Virus record (IMG/VR): IMGVR_UViG_3300043466_000913 | Span: 1-36,087 of that record | Source: a virus | Reading direction: 5' to 3' (one strand) | Length of the DNA stretch: 36,087 nt | The notes under the pieces: model-generated | Databases searched by the model: none | What the model saw: the letters and a program-made list of their open reading frames with translations, nothing else | What the model was told of the DNA's origin: nothing | Position numbers and translations under genes: made by a program | Part shown: piece by piece, positions 148-36,087 of the stretch | How positions within the stretch are numbered: position 1 is the stretch's first letter | How the letters are laid out: each line of letters starts with the position of its first letter

Positions 148-1802
148 CTAACTGCCTACCGGGCAGCCTTGAAGACGTCGGTCGCGCCATCAGCAGCAAC
201 ATGCGCAAAGACCACCGAGGAAAGCAACTCATACGAGCACTATCTGTACCCCGCGCTGATGGATCATTTAATAACGATCCCGCCCTTTTGGCCGAGATGA
301 TCCGTTACTGCGAAACCGACGTCAAAGTGATGCGCGCGATCAGCCAGGCCATGCGTCCGCTGTCCGATCAGGAGCTGGCCGACTACCATGTCAACGAGCG
401 CATCAACGACCGCGGCGTGCTGCTGGACTTGCCGTTAGCTCAAGCCGCCGTCAAGTACGCATCGACCGAACTCGAAGAGATTGAAACGCTGGTAGCCGAG
501 TTGACTGAGGGTGAGATTCTGTCAGTACGCAGCCCGAAGATGCGCCAGTGGGTGCTAGACCGCGTCGGGCCGCAGGCGCTGACGATGATGGAGGTCTACA
601 AAGACGGCGAAAAGAAGTATTCTATTGATAAGGCGGTACGCGCCAATCTACTGGCTTTTGCAGAGGAAAACCCCGATGAGATTCCGACCCATGTTGCGGA
701 CGTCATTCAATGTGCCGACGATCTCTGGGCGTCGTCGGTTGCGAAGTTCAGCCGCCTTGGCGAGCTGGCTGACGAAGTTGATCACCGTGTACGAGGTGCA
801 TTTGTCTTCGCCGGAGGGTCTGCCACCGGGCGTGCATCGAGCTATGGCGCTCAAGTCCACAACTTCACCCGAAAGTGTGCAGCAGAGCCCGATGATGTAC
901 GGCACGCTATGGTCAGAGGCCACAGCATCACCCCAAGATTTGGAAAACGCGTTACTGATGTTCTCAAGGGAATGCTCCGGCCCGCACTGATTCCTGCGCC
1001 TGGTAAACAATTCGTTGTCGCTGACTGGTCTGCTGTCGAGGCCCGTGTCACCGCGTGGGCGTCTGCTGACCCGCAGGCTGATGACGTGCTGCAAGTCTTC
1101 CGCGATGGCCGCGACATCTATAAGCGTGAGGCCGCCGGTATCTACCGCGTGGCCGAGGATAGCGTCGACAAGGAGCAGCGCCAGATCGGCAAGGTTGCGA
1201 TTCTCTCGCTTGGCTTCGGTGGCTCGGTCGGTGCGTTTGCCGCGATGGGCCGCAACTACGGCGTCATCATGCCGGAGTCGGACGCCCGTCGGATTGTCGA
1301 CGCTTGGCGCCGTGCTAATGCGTGGGCGGTGCGCTACTGGGCCAAGCTCGAAGAGGCGTACACGCGTGCTCTACGCAACCCTGGGCGCGAGTTCTCAGCG
1401 GGGCGGGTGACGTACCTGTACGACAAGCAGCATCTTTGGTACGCGCTGCCATCGGGCCGCGTGCTGTGCTATCCATTTGCTAAGTTTGAGGGTGATGAGA
1501 TCACGTACGTCAAGGCGGCATGGAAACCTGCAGCGGACGCGAAGGAATGGCCGCGTGCTCGCTTGTGGCGGGGGCTGGCCTGTGAGAATATTACGCAAGC
1601 AGTCGCTAACGATCTGCTACGGCACGCTTTACGCCAGCTGGATGATGTAGTGCTGCACGTACACGATGAGATCGTTCTGGAGACGGCCAATCCCGATGCA
1701 CCCAATACCCTGCAACAAGTGATGTGCACGCCGCCTGATTGGGCGGCGGGTCTGCCATTGTCGGCAGAAGTAGCAGTCATGAACCGCTACGGCAAAGGTT
1801 AA
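3..1802 (+). CDS. DNA polymerase I-type (family A), C-terminal 599 residues
   Basis: This is the main part of a family A DNA polymerase whose first 50 codons are at 35793-35940; the joined protein is 649 aa. It lacks a 5'-nuclease domain and consists of a DEDD 3'-5' exonuclease followed by the polymerase domain, as in many phage replicases. Using joined numbering, motif A is DWSAVEARV (Asp391). Motif B is RQIGKVAILSLGFGG, with Arg443 and Lys447. Motif C is VHDEIVLE (His604, Asp605, Glu606). The residue equivalent to E. coli Pol I Phe762 is Leu451 (codon 1203-1205), and the Tyr766 equivalent is Phe455. The gene follows the methyltransferase-like gene with a 10-bp overlap and precedes the primase/helicase gene, so it belongs to the replication operon. 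Its role is template-directed synthesis of phage DNA. The window edge splits it; it is not truly truncated. Confidence 0.95.
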   Translation, partial: DQPFPDAVRNHTGPIYAHNAAFERLVFYYVLECDFRLEQFVCTAAQARANCLPGSLEDVGRAISSNMRKDHRGKQLIRALSVPRADGSFNNDPALLAEMIRYCETDVKVMRAISQAMRPLSDQELADYHVNERINDRGVLLDLPLAQAAVKYASTELEEIETLVAELTEGEILSVRSPKMRQWVLDRVGPQALTMMEVYKDGEKKYSIDKAVRANLLAFAEENPDEIPTHVADVIQCADDLWASSVAKFSRLGELADEVDHRVRGAFVFAGGSATGRASSYGAQVHNFTRKCAAEPDDVRHAMVRGHSITPRFGKRVTDVLKGMLRPALIPAPGKQFVVADWSAVEARVTAWASADPQADDVLQVFRDGRDIYKREAAGIYRVAEDSVDKEQRQIGKVAILSLGFGGSVGAFAAMGRNYGVIMPESDARRIVDAWRRANAWAVRYWAKLEEAYTRALRNPGREFSAGRVTYLYDKQHLWYALPSGRVLCYPFAKFEGDEITYVKAAWKPAADAKEWPRARLWRGLACENITQAVANDLLRHALRQLDDVVLHVHDEIVLETANPDAPNTLQQVMCTPPDWAAGLPLSAEVAVMNRYGKG

Positions 1803-1807
1803 CAAAA

Positions 1808-1829
1808 AAGCCACCTGGCGGGGTGGCTT
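1808..1829 (-). terminator. Hairpin between polymerase and primase genes
   Basis: AAGCCACC (1808-1815) pairs perfectly with GGTGGCTT (1822-1829) around a 6-nt loop. The left side is preceded by a run of six A, so on the minus strand the stem is followed by a T-run and forms a good intrinsic terminator. On the plus strand only TTCTTC follows, so termination of the replication operon here would be weak. It may block antisense transcripts or act as a partial bidirectional terminator. Confidence 0.6.
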
Positions 1830-1849
1830 CTTCAACTACAAGGACTGCA

Positions 1850-4171
1850 ATGGATTTCATTGAATACTATCAGAAATTAGCACCCGAAGGCGAGACGGCG
1901 CTGATTGTGCGCCAGAAACCACAACTGAAAGCTGGCGAGCTGCAGTTTCACGCCGACGGCGCCATCAAGTGCACCTGGCCTGCGTATCTGCCAAGCCACA
2001 ACATCAAACCCGATTGGGCCATCTACGGCAACACCGCGTCGTTCATCATCGACCGTTTTGATAATGGCCATGTGAGCGCGTCCGCTGCCAATTGCGAGTA
2101 CGTGCTGGTGATGGTGCTTGATGACGTGGGTGATCCTGAGAAGGCGCCCAACACCCCGACCGTGCCGCCGACGTGGATCATCGAGACGTCCGAGGGCTCG
2201 TACCAGTGGGGCTACACGTTCTCCGAGCAGCCGACGAAGGGCGAGTACGCTGCAGCGATCCGCGCGGTGGCTGATGCTGGCTACACCGATCCAGGCGCCT
2301 GTAACCCTGTGCGCAACTTCCGGCTACCAGGCTCGATCAACCTAAAGCCGAACAAGAACCGATTCGCCGCTCGCTTAGTCGAGTTCCACCCCGAGCGCGA
2401 GTACACGCTCTCTGAGCTCTGCGCAGGCCTTAACGTGACGCCTGCGCCTGCCGACTCGCTGACACTGCGCCCGATCCGATTGTCGGATGATGGCGCTGAT
2501 GACGTGATGGCGTGGTTGTCGGGGCAGGGTCTGCTACTGTCGCGCCCGAATCCGCAAGGGTGGGCGGGTGTTATTTGCCCGAACAGTAGCGAGCACACCG
2601 ATGGCAACCCAGAGGGCCGGTACAACCCCGCCATGCGTGCCTACTGCTGCCTGCACTCGCACTGTCTTGAGCTCGACTCGCATACATTCCTTGATTGGGT
2701 GGCCGCGCAGGGCGGCCCGAAACACGCGCCAGGCTTGCGTGACGAGCTGTTGGCCGCCGTGATGGATCAGACGCTTGCCAAACTGCAGCCGACTGAGGCG
2801 TTCCCTGACAAGGGCGCCGAGGTGATCGCCGAGGTAGAAAAAAAGCAGTTAGACCGAGTGACTAAAGAGGATTGGTATTCCCGCTTTGCGTACATTTTGA
2901 ATGAAGATTCATTTTTTGATATGGAAATGCGGTATGAGATAGACCGCACAGGTTTTAACGCCTTGTACCGGCATGTACTCTGTTATTCAATTCATAAGAC
3001 AGGCAAAAATTCGCGGCGTATTGAGGCGTCGGTTTGTTACGACGAAAATCGCCACGCTAAAAACGCTTTAACGCTTGCTGGAATTACTTACGCCGCTGGC
3101 GAGAGCGTGCTGGTATCGCGTGAGGGGCAGGTATATGGCAATCGCTGGGTCAACCGCCGCCCCGCAATACCTACTAGCACCTGCAGCCCGCAACGCTGGT
3201 TTGATCACCTAGAAAAGCTAATCCCTACCGATTTTGAGCGCGAGCACGTCCTAAACGTGATGGCGTACAAATTGCAAAATGCAAACAAAAAGATTAACCA
3301 CGCTGTACTGCATATTGGCCGCCCAGGGTCAGGTAAGGATACCCTCTGGGAGCCGCTATTGTGGGGCGTAGGCGGCGCAAATAAAGCGAACGTGAAAACT
3401 CTCAAGAACGAGGAAATTACGTCGCAGTGGGGCTATTCGCTTGAGTCTGAGATTATGGTTTTCGAGGAGTTACGCGAGAGTGAAGCGAGAGATCGTCGCG
3501 CGCTCGAGAACCATCTCAAGCCGATTATTGCCGCGCCGCCGGAGTTCTTACAGGTCAACCGTAAGCGCTTACACCCTTACGATATTTTGAACCGCGTGTT
3601 CGTGCTTGCGTTCTCGAATGAGCGCGCGCCGTTATCGTTGCCTTCGGATGATCGGCGCTGGTTCGTGACATATTCAGACGCGCCGAGGATGCCTGACCCC
3701 GAGGGTAAGGCATTTTGGGACTGGTACGCATCCGGCGGCCTTGAGGCCGTATGCAAGGTGCTCTATGCGCGTGACGTGAGCCGATTCAACCCAGGCGCTG
3801 CGCCGCCGTTGACCGAGGCGAAAATTATCATGATCGAGCAGGGCCGCTCAACCGCCGAATCGTACCTTGTCGAGATGATCGAGCGCCGCCTGGGCGAGTT
3901 CTCGGCGGGCGTGATCGCGTCGCCGTTCTACGCGCTCTGTGACCGCCTGCAGGGCGGGGCGCCCACGGGTACTAGGGTAGTACAGCAGGCGCTCTTGCAC
4001 GCGCTCAAAGAGGCCGGATGGGTCGATATGGGCCGCCTTATGTCGAGGGAATTCAGCACACGCAAGCATGTATTCGCTGCGCCCGATTTGGCCGACACGG
4101 CCACAAAATCGGAGCTGCGCCGGATGGTAGAGGAAGCGCCGCCGCCCGCCGCTGTGCGTCTAGTTAAGTAA
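1850..4171 (+). CDS. Phage primase/helicase (primase-like N-terminus, SF3-type DUF5906 helicase)
   Basis: The protein is 773 aa. I start it at ATG 1850, which has AAGGA six bases upstream, because the frame upstream of it overlaps the polymerase gene and a hairpin. The N-terminal third resembles RepB-like archaeo-eukaryotic primase domains, with segments such as VMVLDDVGD and RNFRLPGSINLKP. A Cys/His patch near residues 245-290 (ICPNSSEHTD, YCCLHSHC) may bind zinc. The C-terminal half is a helicase of the D5/DUF5906 type. Its Walker A is GRPGSGKD at about residue 490 (Lys496), its Walker B is IMVFEEL at about 535-541, and it has a sensor-like FSNERAPLSLPSDDRRW stretch near 585-600. It probably unwinds DNA and primes synthesis for the adjacent PolA. 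Whether the primase domain is active cannot be judged by eye. Confidence 0.88.
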   Translation: MDFIEYYQKLAPEGETALIVRQKPQLKAGELQFHADGAIKCTWPAYLPSHNIKPDWAIYGNTASFIIDRFDNGHVSASAANCEYVLVMVLDDVGDPEKAPNTPTVPPTWIIETSEGSYQWGYTFSEQPTKGEYAAAIRAVADAGYTDPGACNPVRNFRLPGSINLKPNKNRFAARLVEFHPEREYTLSELCAGLNVTPAPADSLTLRPIRLSDDGADDVMAWLSGQGLLLSRPNPQGWAGVICPNSSEHTDGNPEGRYNPAMRAYCCLHSHCLELDSHTFLDWVAAQGGPKHAPGLRDELLAAVMDQTLAKLQPTEAFPDKGAEVIAEVEKKQLDRVTKEDWYSRFAYILNEDSFFDMEMRYEIDRTGFNALYRHVLCYSIHKTGKNSRRIEASVCYDENRHAKNALTLAGITYAAGESVLVSREGQVYGNRWVNRRPAIPTSTCSPQRWFDHLEKLIPTDFEREHVLNVMAYKLQNANKKINHAVLHIGRPGSGKDTLWEPLLWGVGGANKANVKTLKNEEITSQWGYSLESEIMVFEELRESEARDRRALENHLKPIIAAPPEFLQVNRKRLHPYDILNRVFVLAFSNERAPLSLPSDDRRWFVTYSDAPRMPDPEGKAFWDWYASGGLEAVCKVLYARDVSRFNPGAAPPLTEAKIIMIEQGRSTAESYLVEMIERRLGEFSAGVIASPFYALCDRLQGGAPTGTRVVQQALLHALKEAGWVDMGRLMSREFSTRKHVFAAPDLADTATKSELRRMVEEAPPPAAVRLVK

Positions 4172-4244: not shown

Positions 4245-4304
4245 TCACAATCCTAGCAGGATCGCGAAGAGTGCCGCAAGAAATAATCCAATGAGCGCGG
4301 CCAT
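4245..4304 (-). CDS. 19-aa hydrophobic micropeptide
   Basis: This tiny frame encodes MAALIGLFLAALFAILLGL, which is almost wholly hydrophobic and long enough to span a membrane once. Its ATG overlaps the TAA of the upstream gene (TAATG at 4302-4306), a classic arrangement for coupled translation, and it is the last gene before the operon terminator. I do not recognise a family. Small single-span phage peptides can act in lysis, membrane sensing or host-protein inhibition, but nothing here picks one of these. The start-stop overlap and the composition are the evidence that it is real. Confidence 0.6.
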   Translation of the reverse strand: MAALIGLFLAALFAILLGL

Positions 4305-4588
4305 TAGTCACCGCCTGATAGATAATCCGCCGCTTCGCTTTCCAGTCGCTTAATCGTCGCGTCGTTCAGATAGTCGGCAATGTCGGCCGGATTGTCAGCG
4401 ACGTGCGCGTGCACAATCCAAGCAGTAGCATTGAACCCGAGTTCAGGATCGGCGGGCTCGAAATCTACCCATATTGAGAAAAGCACGTCATCCAGCAGAA
4501 TTTCTACGCGCTCAAGATAATGCGGATATGGCCGATTTTTTGCGCCAGCTACGGCGCGGGCATCGTCGCGTGCGTTATTTGTCATCAT
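4304..4588 (-). CDS. Hypothetical protein (94 aa), acidic
   Basis: I do not recognise this protein. It is acidic and soluble-looking, with an Asp-rich centre (ILLDDVLF, WVDFEPADPELG) and a helical, acidic C-terminus (IKRLESEAADYL). AAGGTG lies just upstream and could serve either of two adjacent ATG codons (4588 or 4585); the second has the better spacing. That SD overlaps the stop of the upstream gene, and the gene's own stop overlaps the micropeptide start, so translation along the operon is tightly coupled. Confidence 0.75.
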   Translation of the reverse strand: MMTNNARDDARAVAGAKNRPYPHYLERVEILLDDVLFSIWVDFEPADPELGFNATAWIVHAHVADNPADIADYLNDATIKRLESEAADYLSGGD

Positions 4589-6377: not shown

Positions 6378-6545
6378 TTAAATGTAATTCCAAGGCTTGG
6401 CGCCGACGGATTTCGCGAATTGTTTTGCGTCGCGTTTTTGAGCGAAAGTCATTTCAGTAATGATGTTTTCCAGTAGCGGCTTAACTCCACGGACAATTGC
6501 AATTTTCCAGCCGTCGCGGGTTTTAGTGAGGTGCGCTGTCGTCAT
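6378..6545 (-). CDS. Small hypothetical protein (55 aa), first gene of leftward operon
   Basis: The protein starts MTTAHLTKTRDGWKIAIVRG and ends KQFAKSVGAKPWNYI. The start at 6545 is supported by AAGGGGC about six bases upstream, and a strong promoter-like pair lies some 60-90 bp upstream. It is basic and probably mixed beta/alpha. I do not recognise it. Being promoter-proximal, it should be the most highly expressed gene of this operon. Confidence 0.65.
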   Translation of the reverse strand: MTTAHLTKTRDGWKIAIVRGVKPLLENIITEMTFAQKRDAKQFAKSVGAKPWNYI

Positions 6546-6606
6546 TTTTTGCCCCTTTGCTTAAAAAATAGTCAGTTAACTTGTAAATCATTGTGCTGCA
6601 GATATC

Positions 6607-6635
6607 TTTATACGCGAAAAAATAAAAAGTGTAAA
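6607..6635 (-). promoter_or_regulatory. Sigma70-like promoter of leftward accessory operon
   Basis: On the minus strand TTTACA (6635-6630) and TATAAA (6612-6607) are separated by exactly 17 bp, each matching consensus at five of six positions. The start of transcription would be near 6600, giving a leader of about 55 nt before the first gene (ATG 6545). The -35 lies in a small inverted repeat, TGTAAA (6630-6635) and TTTACA (6643-6648), which could be an operator. Confidence 0.75.
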
Positions 6636-6660
6636 GGATTATTTTACATTAGTTTGCGCG

Positions 6661-6696
6661 GTCAATTTGTAACCGATGTTAGTCAATTTGTAGCCG
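6661..6696. repeat. 15-bp direct repeat, 21-bp period
   Basis: GTCAATTTGTAACCG (6661-6675) and GTCAATTTGTAGCCG (6682-6696) differ at one base and are spaced 21 bp start to start, two helical turns. They lie just upstream of the leftward promoter and overlap one GTTAGT half-site (6678-6683). Tandem regulator binding is plausible. Confidence 0.6.
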
Positions 6697-6755
6697 TGAA
6701 AAAGCGGCAAATGACTAACGCGGAACACTAGACTAGATGCGGCTTTTTGCTTTTT

Positions 6756-6899
6756 GTTAGTCATGTAGTCATGTTTTTAGATTGAACCTAAGTAACTTTA
6801 TTTTTGATATCTATATGGCAACAATGCCAGGCCATGACGTGCGCATCTCTGCACGCGCGCCAATTTAATTTCCATGACTACATGACTAACATGACTAAC
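6756..6899. repeat. 18-bp perfect inverted repeat plus extra CATGACTAAC copy
   Basis: GTTAGTCATGTAGTCATG at 6756-6773 is the exact reverse complement of 6873-6890; a further ATGACTAAC follows at 6891-6899, and another lies outside at 6711-6719. The arms are 99 bp apart and enclose AT-rich DNA. The arms share the GTTAGT/ACTAAC hexamer with the palindromes at 7013-7146, so one protein family may read both. Confidence 0.8.
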
Positions 6900-6922
6900 A
6901 TAGCTTTTTGACAACAAAAAAG

Positions 6923-6931
6923 TTATCCACA
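6923..6931 (+). promoter_or_regulatory. Perfect DnaA box
   Basis: TTATCCACA matches the bacterial DnaA 9-mer consensus exactly. It is surrounded by A-rich DNA (6914-6922 and 6941-6947) and flanked by repeat clusters on both sides, the usual company of an iteron-type origin. A single 9-mer can occur by chance, so context carries the argument. Confidence 0.55.
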
Positions 6932-6955
6932 GATTTGTGTACAAAAAGGTAACAG

Positions 6956-6974
6956 AAAAAGGGCCCTCGGCCCT
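6956..6974 (-). terminator. Minus-directed intrinsic terminator inside the hub
   Basis: AGGGCC (6960-6965) pairs with GGCCCT (6969-6974) around CTC. The A-run at 6956-6960 becomes a T-run on the minus strand, so the structure would stop leftward transcription. No minus-strand gene lies upstream of it, so it either ends a short untranslated RNA made from the palindrome region or blocks antisense leakage into the origin. Confidence 0.65.
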
Positions 6975-7012
6975 CGCTTCGTGTTAGTTGGCTATATGGC
7001 TAACAGATGTTA

Positions 7013-7146
7013 GTTAGTACTCACTAACTGGCGCAAAAAAAAGTGAGTGCTCACTAACTTGCCAGGCTAACAACTGTCAGTAAGTGCTCACTAACATGTT
7101 AGTTAGTGCTCACTAACCTGGGAGATTGAAGTGAGTGCTCACTAAC
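7013..7146. repeat. Five 16-bp palindromic operator/iteron-like repeats
   Basis: The copies are 7013-7028, 7043-7058, 7080-7095, 7102-7117 and 7131-7146. The consensus is GTTAGTGCTCACTAAC: two 7-bp arms around a central CT. Four copies carry GTGCTCACTAAC exactly in the last 12 bases; the first has GTACTCACTAAC. All have the same orientation, with gaps of 14, 21, 6 and 13 bp. The right half is invariant and the left half varies (GTTAGT, GTGAGT, GTAAGT). The pattern fits a dimeric DNA-binding protein. Confidence 0.85.
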
Positions 7147-7150
7147 TTTT

Positions 7151-7166
7151 GGGTGGGGGGTGGGGG
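7151..7166 (+). other. G-run tract, possible quadruplex
   Basis: GGGTGGGGGGTGGGGG lies directly after the last palindrome and about 80 bp before the small terminase gene. Fourteen of sixteen bases are G. A two- or three-layer G-quadruplex is possible on the plus strand, or in mRNA if transcription begins upstream. Confidence 0.45.
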
Positions 7167-7198
7167 CCCGCGCCTGGCCGGTCACGTCCACGGAGGTG

Positions 7199-7227
7199 TT
7201 GCACAAAATTTTTTATTTTTTTAAAAA
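7199..7227 (+). promoter_or_regulatory. Weak candidate late promoter
   Basis: TTGCAC (7199-7204) and TAAAAA (7222-7227) are 17 bp apart, within a strongly A/T-biased tract 20-50 bp before the small terminase start. The -10 matches only four of six positions. If it is used, the leader would be only about a dozen bases, which would fit the absence of a Shine-Dalgarno before ATG 7247. Confidence 0.35.
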
Positions 7228-7246
7228 AATCCGTTACCATCAAGCC

Positions 7247-7696
7247 ATGTTCAAATCCATCCCGTTCACCCCACGCAAAGTGGAGGCGACAGAAGCGCGT
7301 CTCCAGGCGATCTATGACGCCGCTGCTTTGGGTCTGAAGGGTGACTCGCTGGCGTTAGCCGCTGGATTGCTGCCCACCGAATACAGACAGCTGTGCGAGT
7401 TGGATCCGGTGGCTGCGATGGCAGAACAGAAGGGCCGCGCTGACTCCGAGATGGAGGCGTCCATGCACCTGCGCGAAGCTGCCCGTGCTGGCGACAGCAA
7501 GGCGGCGCTGGCTATACTGCAGCACAGCCACGGCTGGACAGCCCGCCAAGAGATTAGTGTCGACATCACGAACCGGATCAGCATCACGCAGGCGCTGCAA
7601 CAGGCGCAGGAACGTGTGATCGACGGTCTGATCACCGAACAGCAACCGCACACGTTACCCACCAAACTGACGCATGGCACAACAGCCGATCTATGA
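7247..7696 (+). CDS. terS: Terminase small subunit
   Basis: The protein is 149 aa. I start it at ATG 7247 (MFKSIPFTPRK) because the frame upstream runs through the G-run and A/T tracts. An N-terminal helix-turn-helix-like stretch (ALGLKGDSLALAAGLLPTEY, about residues 25-44) is followed by helices with EASMHLREAARAGDSKAALA and the HSHGWTARQEISV segment typical of small terminase subunits. The C-terminus is helical and Gln-rich. The protein should recognise the packaging site and load the large subunit onto DNA. It overlaps the large subunit gene by 23 bp. No clear Shine-Dalgarno precedes the start, which is unusual for the first gene of a long operon. Confidence 0.85.
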   Translation: MFKSIPFTPRKVEATEARLQAIYDAAALGLKGDSLALAAGLLPTEYRQLCELDPVAAMAEQKGRADSEMEASMHLREAARAGDSKAALAILQHSHGWTARQEISVDITNRISITQALQQAQERVIDGLITEQQPHTLPTKLTHGTTADL

Positions 7697-19133: not shown

Positions 19134-20619
19134 CGCCGATAACGAACCGCAGATACCCAAGAACCAGTCGCCGATTACCGACGACCGGACGGGGATGGTG
19201 TCGCGTGACTGGTATCGGTTCTTCCTAAACCTGCTGAACAAAGCCAACTCCGGTGGTGGTGGCGGGTCAGGTACGGTCACGTCGGTCAATGTCTCCGGCG
19301 GCACGACAGGTCTGACGACTTCAGGCGGCCCTGTCACAACATCAGGCACCATCACGCTGGCAGGCACGCTGGATGTCGATAATGGCGGCACGGGCCAGAC
19401 TACGGCAGCAGCCGCCATTACCGCGCTAACAGGCACGCAGACGTCAGGCTACTACCTGCGCTCAAACGGCACTAACGCGGCTTTGAGCGCCATTCAGGTT
19501 GCCGACGTGCCAACGCTTAACCAAAACACAACCGGCCAAGCAGGCAGTGTAGCCAATGCGTTGACTTCTGGCACCGGCATCTCGTACAGCGTCGGCACAA
19601 CCTATGACGGCTCGGTGGCGGTCACGATTGATAATTCGGCGCCAGATCAGGTGGTGTCGCTGACCGGCGGCACAGGCATCAGCACCTCGGGCACGTACCC
19701 CAGCTTTACCATTACAAATACGGCGCCTGATCAAGTGGTGTCACTTACTGGTGGCACAGGTATTAGCACGTCAGGCATTTACCCCAGCTTTACCGTAACT
19801 AATACCGCACCAGACCAAGTCGTTTCCATAGCGGCTGGCACGGGTATGAGCGTGACAGGCACATACCCCAGCTTTACCGTCACCAACACCGCACCCGACC
19901 AGATCGTATCGCTGACAGGCGCAGGTACGACCAGCGTCACCGGCACGTACCCAAACTTCACCATCACCTCCAACGATCAGTACGTGGGCACGGTCACCAG
20001 CGTCTCCGGCACCGGCACGGTCAACGGCATCAGCCTGTCGGGCACGGTGACGTCCAGCGGCAGCCTGACACTCGGTGGCACGCTGACTGGGGTTGACCTG
20101 ACTACCCAAGTGACGGGTACGCTGCCGATTGCTAACGGCGGTACAGGCCAGACAACTGCCAGCGCAGCGTTTAATGCCTTGTCGCCAGTCACCAGCACGG
20201 GCGATCTGATCATTGGCAACGGGGCCAACAGCTCGACCCGCCTGCCGATTGGGGCGAACAACTACGTTCTGACCTCGAATGGCACGACGGCTGTCTGGGC
20301 GTTGGCTACCGGTTCGGGCGCGACGATTACGAACGACACCACAACCGCAACAAATGTCTACCCGACCTTTGCGGCAGCCACCTCCGGCGCGCTGTCGACC
20401 ATCTACACCAGCAATGCAAAATTACTATACAAACCCAGCACGGGTGAATTAACATCTGAGCATTTCATAGCGGGCAACGGCATATTTGTCAATAATCTAA
20501 CGATTGATGTCAGCTATACCATTGCAGCAGGTACGTCGGGCATGTCAGCTGGGCCGGTTACGGTGGCGAGCGGCACGACGGTGACAGTAGCCAGCGGCTC
20601 ACGATGGGTGGTGATGTGA
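19126..20619 (+). CDS. Tail fibre/needle-position protein with 28-aa repeats
   Basis: The protein is 497 aa. The N-terminus (about residues 1-40: PKNQSPITDDRTGMVSRDWY) looks like a virion-anchoring segment, followed by a Gly hinge (SGGGGGSG). The rest is Gly/Thr/Ser-rich, including GGTGQTTA-type motifs, and four 28-residue repeats (172-283). The C-terminus, GPVTVASGTTVTVASGSRWV followed by VM, is a tip motif seen in many phage fibres. It follows the gp10-like gene, where P22 carries its needle gp26, so it may be the needle, an adaptor or a fibre. Receptor binding is inferred. Confidence 0.8.
   Translation: MPNADNEPQIPKNQSPITDDRTGMVSRDWYRFFLNLLNKANSGGGGGSGTVTSVNVSGGTTGLTTSGGPVTTSGTITLAGTLDVDNGGTGQTTAAAAITALTGTQTSGYYLRSNGTNAALSAIQVADVPTLNQNTTGQAGSVANALTSGTGISYSVGTTYDGSVAVTIDNSAPDQVVSLTGGTGISTSGTYPSFTITNTAPDQVVSLTGGTGISTSGIYPSFTVTNTAPDQVVSIAAGTGMSVTGTYPSFTVTNTAPDQIVSLTGAGTTSVTGTYPNFTITSNDQYVGTVTSVSGTGTVNGISLSGTVTSSGSLTLGGTLTGVDLTTQVTGTLPIANGGTGQTTASAAFNALSPVTSTGDLIIGNGANSSTRLPIGANNYVLTSNGTTAVWALATGSGATITNDTTTATNVYPTFAAATSGALSTIYTSNAKLLYKPSTGELTSEHFIAGNGIFVNNLTIDVSYTIAAGTSGMSAGPVTVASGTTVTVASGSRWVVM
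19639..19974 (+). repeat. Four 84-bp coding repeats in the fibre gene
   Basis: Each unit encodes 28 residues of the form APDQVVSLTGGTGISTSGTY followed by PSFTITNT. Units 1 and 2 are nearly identical; units 3 and 4 have diverged (VSIAAGTGMSVTG, VSLTGAGTTSVTG). The length could change by unequal recombination. Confidence 0.85.
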
Positions 20620-27541: not shown

Positions 27542-28074
27542 TGACTGTCACGATTAACGGTAGCGCAGGTGTTACCACGAACAGCGGTGCGGTGTATGAC
27601 AGCTTGCAGAGAGGTACGGTATCAACTACAACAGGCGGTACTTCGATAGATTTTTCATCCCTTCCTAGTTGGACTCGCCGAATCACAATAATGTTGAGCG
27701 GCGTTAGTACAAACGGTACGACTACTTTGCGCGTGCAAATTGGTACTGGGGGGACTCCCACCACTAGCGGTTATACCAGCGATTGTATCCAAGCTACATC
27801 ATCTGGAACTGTAACGATTACCCAGCTAACTAACGGTTTTTACATTGCTACACCTACACTTGCAAACGCTTCATTTAAGGGAACTTTAGTGTTAGTCAAC
27901 GTAACAGGTAATACGTGGGTATGTAATGGAAATGTAGCTGACAGCACTAATAATCGCATGTATGTCAGTAGCGGTAACGTGGCACTTGGAGGCACTTTAG
28001 ACAATGTCCGAATAACAATTAACGGTACAGACACGTTTGATGTTAACGGCGGTATCAACATCATTTATGAGTAA
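27541..28074 (+). CDS. Tail tip/fibre-like protein B (177 aa), paralog of 25955-26539
   Basis: This protein shares with protein A the core PSW-RRITI-LSGVS, the VN-TGNTW motif and the GxINIIYE end. The N-terminal 40 residues differ and are Thr/Gly-rich. The two paralogs may be alternative or sequentially placed tips. The start is coupled to the preceding gene by TAATG, with GAAGGAG upstream. Confidence 0.75.
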   Translation: MTVTINGSAGVTTNSGAVYDSLQRGTVSTTTGGTSIDFSSLPSWTRRITIMLSGVSTNGTTTLRVQIGTGGTPTTSGYTSDCIQATSSGTVTITQLTNGFYIATPTLANASFKGTLVLVNVTGNTWVCNGNVADSTNNRMYVSSGNVALGGTLDNVRITINGTDTFDVNGGINIIYE

Positions 28075-35802: not shown

Positions 35803-36087
35803 TTCTCTGGGTTGATTTCGAGACGCGCAGTCGCTGCGATCTCACAAGCAAGGGAGTGTACAACTATGCTCAAGATGCAAGCACAGATGTTCTGTGCATG
35901 TCCTATGCGTTTGGTGACAATGACGTTGTCACCTGGACGCCCGACCAACCATTTCCTGATACCGTACGCAACCACACAGGGCCGATATACGCGCACAATG
36001 CAGCGTTCGAGCGGCTCGTCTTCTATTACGTCCTTGAATGTGACTTTCGGCTCGAGCAGTTCGTCTGCACCGCTGCACAAGCGCGTG
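35793..36087 (+). CDS. DNA polymerase I-type (family A), N-terminal 98 codons
   Basis: This is the start of the polymerase gene that continues at the left end of the window. The protein begins MGVILWVDFETRSRCDL, with the exonuclease I motif DFET (Asp8, Glu10) of the DEDD 3'-5' proofreading domain. A second exonuclease segment, IYAHNAAFERLVFYY, lies in the terminal repeat. ATG 35793 lies inside the last codons of the methyltransferase-like gene (10-bp overlap), so translation is probably coupled. The final 147 bases duplicate the left end of the window. Confidence 0.93.
   Translation, partial: MGVILWVDFETRSRCDLTSKGVYNYAQDASTDVLCMSYAFGDNDVVTWTPDQPFPDTVRNHTGPIYAHNAAFERLVFYYVLECDFRLEQFVCTAAQAR
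35941..36087. repeat. Terminal redundancy, right copy (circular join)
   Basis: This copy matches 1-147 except for three transitions within the first 21 bases. Joining the window at this overlap gives a continuous 649-aa polymerase. It could be an assembly overlap of a circular molecule; the sequence alone does not show physical direct terminal repeats. Confidence 0.9.

Follow-up and report, generated by a model that had tools for sequence, protein, structure and literature searches.

Pairing of a replication initiator with its own iterons is already known from SaPI elements, from PLE and from geminiviruses. According to PMC7581432 (citing Ubeda 2007), the SaPI Rep and SCCmec Cch2 proteins are helicases or primase-helicases whose C-terminal domain recognises short iterons of the origin, and the SaPI-type origin is located just downstream of the helicase gene. 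Loading of two helicase rings by facing iteron clusters has been proposed for SaPI Rep and Cch2 (PMC7581432). The NrS-1 polymerase is a primase-polymerase with an SF3-like helicase region, and its Head and Tail folds were described as novel; an 8-nt recognition sequence, present twice, was suggested as a possible origin (PMC7102993). For the Vibrio cholerae PLE, origin swaps showed cognate pairing with RepA, and the phage nuclease Odn was proposed as the driver of diversification (PMC8263062). Geminivirus strains that are mismatched in the iteron-related domain of Rep are incompatible in replication (PMC2974675). In the winged helices of RFX1 and PCG2, the main base contacts are made by the wing (PMC4333399).

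The locus analysed here contains an inverted repeat which is very probably a pair of iteron clusters at the replication origin of a freshwater phage from a group that is common in freshwater. It is highly probable that the repeat is the core of the origin, that its iterons are bound by the winged helix of the phage's primase-helicase, and that the specificity is set mainly by the wing loop and the strand after it. The window, i.e. the whole stretch of DNA that was analysed, is an entire IMG/VR record of 36,087 bases and represents a podovirus-like phage, its terminase being related to many podophage terminases. It encodes an 810-aa primase-helicase (1739-4171), an SNF2-type helicase and a DUF2800/PD-(D/E)XK nuclease (Pfam/PHROGs) as well as a DNA polymerase-like gene, which was named after its annotated counterpart in relatives. 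A near-identical peptide is encoded at both record ends (35812-36087 and 1-300), inside the DNA polymerase region. The record therefore looks like a circular assembly with an inexact overlap; an exact terminal repeat was not found at its ends.

A non-coding hub of 700 bp (about 6546-7246) lies between small leftward genes on one side and the rightward terS and terL genes on the other. A comparison of the hub with phage records by blastn gave no match, and the GC skew along the window does not switch clearly at the hub. On the minus strand, a protein encoded at 5365-6048 matches DUF7227 (PF23872, E 1e-90), and the gene at 4304-4588 encodes an acidic protein of 94 aa that is present in 40/40 sequences holding both a primase and a typed hub. 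Just before terS, at 7150-7230, a G-run precedes a conserved CACGGAGG...AAATTTTTTATTTT element, which at least 30 of the 80 relatives share and which is possibly a packaging site or a promoter. The features of the hub and of the proposed initiator are the following:

1739-4171, plus strand: 810-aa primase-helicase, the proposed initiator (Pfam/PHROGs, AlphaFold2, PDB comparison, covariation)
4040-4078, plus strand: codons for residues 768-780 (MSREFSTRKHVFA), the proposed specificity determinant (covariation, AlphaFold2)
6638-6665, minus strand: TTGACC-16-AATAAT next to the first iteron, a candidate sigma-70-type promoter directed leftward (by consensus match)
6677-6685, plus strand: outlying iteron TGTTAGTCA, an exact unit; relatives have their own unit at the equivalent place
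6712-6720, minus strand: outlying reverse iteron CGTTAGTCA; relatives also have a reverse unit with a final G here, such as TTGTCCACG in the case of L031
6755-6773, plus strand: left arm, TGTTAGTCA (6755-6763) and TGTAGTCATG (6764-6773); in relatives, left arms with the local unit were obtained by automatic search
6774-6872, no strand: interarm region of 99 bp, candidate unwinding region (from its composition)
6873-6900, minus strand: right arm, three reverse iterons CATGACTACA, TGACTAACA and TGACTAACA; this unit was used for typing 40 relatives
6923-6931, plus strand: DnaA box TTATCCACA, a perfect match 22 bp past the right arm
6959-6975, minus strand: terminator-like hairpin for leftward reading (by consensus match)
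7011-7030, 7041-7060, 7078-7097, 7100-7119 and 7129-7148, no strand: five palindromic sites, a separate class outside the iteron system

The 18-bp perfect inverted repeat described in the initial annotation is exact, GTTAGTCATGTAGTCATG at 6756-6773 being the reverse complement of 6873-6890. The match even gains one base on each side (a flanking T/A), resulting in 19 bp (6755-6773 and 6873-6891) with 99 bp in between, and the additional ATGACTAAC copies at 6711-6719 and 6891-6899 were confirmed. Chance, which had been considered an inadequate explanation from the start, is ruled out: exact inverted repeats of at least 18 bp within 400 bp occurred in none of 50 simulated windows (first-order Markov) and in none of 2,000 simulated hubs of 700 bp. 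The arms are composed of tandem 9-bp units with the basic unit TGTTAGTCA, and both clusters face inward; the right arm reads TGTTAGTCA+TGTTAGTCA+TGTAGTCATG on the minus strand, the left arm TGTTAGTCA+TGTAGTCATG. When the window was searched for exact TGTTAGTCA, only one copy was found outside the hub, at 27890-27898. The interarm region is 76% AT in its first 50 bp, followed by a GC-rich CGTGC...GCACG inverted repeat.

Relatives were collected in several ways. A TerL search yielded 80 viral contigs (79-99% identical), a primase-centred scan 40 sequences (window included) with both a primase and a typed hub, and two extra scans with distant primases an independent set (n=58), for which the arms were called automatically and the wing was not used. 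The layout is retained as a rule across the related phage contigs, which number well over 100, and the 9-mer differs. Relatives with the same layout that lack both arms, which would have spoken against the significance of the repeat, were looked for; relatives mostly retain both arms with an altered word. Among the TerL relatives, where the hub layout recurs in many, the units are TGTTAGTCA, TGTTGGCTA, TGTGGGTCA, TGTGGACAA, TGTTGGTCA, TGTTGGCAA and TGCACGTCA; a further iteron class in relatives is TGTAGGCAA. The word is TGTTAGTCA in the window, TGTGGACCA in L091 and TGTGGACAA in L126, and mixed units occur in many origins. The arms are mostly 85-120 bp apart in relatives, and rearranged hubs are present within the window's own clade (L104, L113, L124). 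The automatic arm search reached 36/36 in 50 real loci and at most 29 in shuffled regions, and some hubs scored no better than background.

L318 carries tandem TGTTAGTCA-type arms at about 2300-2600 of its reverse complement, with a terminase-like gene of its own following approximately 1 kb downstream; none of the window's genes for TerL, portal, polymerase and primase has a homologue on this 13.6-kb contig, which ends 2.5 kb from the hub. In phage DSL-LC05 (L087), TGACCCAC repeat clusters in a single orientation lie in the corresponding intergenic region upstream of terS (about 3590-3980 of the reverse complement); the wing pattern was looked for in this phage and not found. ctNMl277 has no comparable arms, and its wing is different.

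The primase-helicase comprises a RepB_primase-like N-terminus, a DUF5906 helicase and a C-terminal winged helix. Two AlphaFold2 models, one of residues 441-810 (pLDDT 80) and one of the C-terminal 136 residues, show the helicase followed by the winged helix, and place the wing loop at residues 768-775 and the next strand at 776-780; the pLDDT of this block is above 90 in the isolated domain. The best fold match of the C-terminal part is the NrS-1 polymerase (Z 23, Foldseek 1e-15), to which the sequence match is weak. The SaPI5 primase-helicase matches with Z 18.3 over model residues 30-369, i.e. helicase and C-terminal domain, and ASFV PrimPol and poxvirus D5 are further matches. When the winged helix alone was compared with the PDB by Foldseek, nothing matched significantly (best E 0.17).

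The evidence connecting this protein to the arms is covariation. In the first set (n=35), similarity in the wing (residues 768-780) correlated with iteron similarity with a partial r of 0.59 when the rest of the primase-helicase protein was controlled for, as compared to 0.33 for the best window elsewhere in the protein; this was reached in 0/5,000 permutations. In the new set (n=58), the partial r of the wing was 0.82 and that of other regions at best 0.28 (0/2,000 permutations), with 13-residue windows starting at 757-767 scoring equally high because they overlap the wing. The permutations leave shared ancestry in; it is accounted for only by the independent-pair test described below. Other genes, compared in 30-34 phages, did not covary with the iteron (DNA polymerase -0.19, 94-aa gene 0.08, 110-aa gene -0.02, TerS -0.03, TerL 0.05). 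Simple linkage therefore does not explain the pattern, and co-inheritance as a block is argued against. Since they do not covary, two other initiator candidates were rejected, namely the 110-aa gene and the 94-aa gene, which every one of the 40 contigs possesses. The recognition helix of the primase, considered as the specificity determinant, was discarded because it varies mostly with the clade and not with the unit.

The last 130 residues of the L091 and window proteins are 99% identical outside the wing, and wing and iteron both differ; the same holds for L126-type proteins as compared to L129/L132, which are 95-98% identical. On a tree of 89 primases, calculated with the wing excluded, there are at least 27 changes of the unit. 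Position 4 of the unit (G or not) distinguishes the members of ten independent supported pairs, and in about 9/10 of these pairs Lys/Arg768 and Asp/Glu773 follow; none of the ten opposes the trend at residues 768/773 (sign test, p about 0.004). The primase columns that best predict the unit are 768, 772, 773 and 780. Arg770 is lost in 17/17 proteins with TTTGGGTCA units and kept in the other 72. The code is not one-to-one: at position 4, T, A and G all occur with Ala768, and an identical wing occurs with TGTGGGCAA or TGTGGGTCA (L098/L094). A rule linking Tyr772 to A6, seen in the first set, was weaker in the new set and was given up.

Furthermore, Met768 and TAGTCA iterons each predicted the other in lineages that are about 60% identical. 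A scan of viral contigs with ATGACTAACATGACTAACAT led to L321; its primase shares 61% identity with that of the window and has Met768. Conversely, outside the window's own group Met768 was seen in just one more wing, that of L076 (57% identical), whose hub was then found to contain TGTAGTCA/TGTTAGTCA units. As the identity between L321 and L076 is 72%, Met768 recurred independently at least once, not surely twice. In L323, a near relative, wing and units are the same as in the window. Natural variation points to about five residues as probably setting the specificity, and the confinement of covariation to the wing lends indirect support to the idea that the C-terminal domain specifically binds the phage's own iterons.

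On this basis, the following mechanism may be proposed. The several copies of the 9-bp iteron (TGTTAGTCA) would be bound, presumably directly, by the C-terminal winged helix of the primase-helicase, and the inward-facing clusters would load two helicase rings onto the AT-rich spacer. The spacer between the arms would then melt, and the primase domain of the primase-helicase would prime synthesis, possibly with assistance from host DnaA at the adjacent box. The wing loop (768-775), together with the strand after it, would account for most of the specificity; iteron word and loop change jointly between related phages. Origin function of the arms is what we infer from these sequence comparisons.

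The presence of a perfect DnaA box 22 bp off the right arm raises the question whether the 9-mers are themselves host DnaA sites, resembling the DnaA box (TGTGGATAA on the other strand), with DnaA alone as initiator. Indeed, TGTGGACAA differs from a DnaA box by only one base, and TGTGGATAA occurs as a unit in L091 and L148-type loci. However, TGTTAGTCA is a poor DnaA box, and the 9-mers vary between phages, together with a phage protein, while the adjacent true box stays nearly constant: it is TTATCCACA in 36/40, TTACCCACA in 3/40 and TTATTCACA in 1/40 of the iteron-typed hubs, which were picked by searching GTTA[TC][CT]CACA, i.e. the box with two free positions. The several DnaA boxes of a DnaA-dependent origin were not found in the window, which has one perfect box (6923-6931) and one with a single mismatch at 19374, fewer than in shuffles. 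This explanation is thus very unlikely. It is extremely unlikely that the arms act as a structure, either a DNA cruciform or an RNA hairpin. They can pair in a single strand, and folding of the region beats shuffles (z -5.6), but a loop of 99 bases is unfavourable, extra iteron copies outside the arms are unpaired, and Rfam gave no match at the gathering threshold for 6500-7300. Moreover, arm complementarity is 18/18 in just 51/133 loci and 13-17 of 18 in the other 82/133, and in L001/L092 one arm has gained a base that interrupts the pairing; the cruciform envisaged in the initial annotation is hence unlikely to be a selected feature.

The location of the hub between divergent transcription units, with a promoter-like site adjoining the first iteron, would also suit operators at which a phage repressor or activator controls the small leftward genes and the rightward terminase genes. 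The promoter match (TTGACC-16-AATAAT, 6638-6665) does not exceed shuffled expectation, and no recognised DNA-binding family was matched by the candidate genes near the hub in the window; a cognate regulator encoded by the phage was searched for in a subset of the genes, and no regulator family was found among these. The iteron covaries with the primase wing, but not with the genes between primase and hub. Operator function is accordingly unlikely, and autoregulation by the primase-helicase may be a side role of the arms. Unlike ordinary regulator operators, the arms covary with the wing of a primase-helicase, which points to an origin.

One regulator acting on both the arms and the downstream palindromes, which had been considered possible in view of the shared GTTAGT hexamer, is ruled out since the palindromes accompany every main iteron class, including TGTGGACAA, TGTGGGTCA, TGTTGGCTA and TGTAGGCAA (40 typed relatives). 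These sites upstream of terS have the form GTTAGTGAG..CTCACTAAC (consensus GTTAGTGAGNNCTCACTAAC); they are retained in most relatives whatever the iteron class and absent from a few loci. The hexamer occurs 15 times in 6678-7146, where about a dozen had been counted, and 27 times in the window (11.2 expected). Among the iteron classes, it is confined to that of the window, and its sharing with the palindromes is therefore coincidental. The hub does hold two classes of site, as had been thought possible, but they are not a single family joined by GTTAGT.

If the iterons and the wing are paired as proposed for this origin, close relatives would have private origins, which perhaps lets them escape satellites, competing phages or origin-targeting nucleases. 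Frequent word switching despite terminases that are about 95% identical is as predicted by the exclusion of satellites or co-infecting relatives; the nearest precedents are the Vibrio PLE/Odn system and the iteron-related domain of geminivirus Rep. In most environmental phages, the origin and its binding protein are both obscure, and here they could be paired from sequence alone; the choice of origin by primase-helicases of the D5/SF3 type thereby becomes testable. More tentatively, and with less confidence than in the origin itself, one might envisage a readable amino-acid-to-base code in which the hypervariable wing, not the recognition helix, reads the 9-bp iterons and repeated diversification leads to private origins.

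When compared to the described systems, the phage arms and primase-helicase can be read as working like SaPI Rep and its origin. Shared with the SaPI Rep/Cch2 type are a D5/SF3-like helicase with a C-terminal winged helix, for which binding of double-stranded DNA is predicted, and multiple short iterons (6677-6900) downstream of the helicase gene. In contrast to SaPI, the origin lies about 2.5 kb from this gene with other genes in between, and it has tandem 9-bp units and an adjoining DnaA box and belongs to a tailed phage that encodes a DNA polymerase itself; moreover, dozens of natural word/wing variants localise the specificity to the wing. For NrS-1, the paper describes no iteron clusters (PMC7102993). 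As in PLE RepA and its origin, where modules are exchanged, the DNA-binding domain of the initiator and the iterons vary jointly (PMC8263062), but PLE has RepA_N proteins, semi-palindromic iterons of about 30 bp and swaps of whole domains, whereas here one loop changes. A short protein stretch that varies with the iteron core among relatives is likewise found in geminivirus Rep (PMC2974675), a rolling-circle initiator of plant viruses with another fold and mechanism. That the wing instead of the recognition helix would carry the specificity resembles RFX1 and PCG2 (PMC4333399), which are eukaryotic transcription factors. With respect to the open-access literature, the new aspect is such a pairing across a common group of freshwater phages, with variants dense enough to localise the specificity to one wing.
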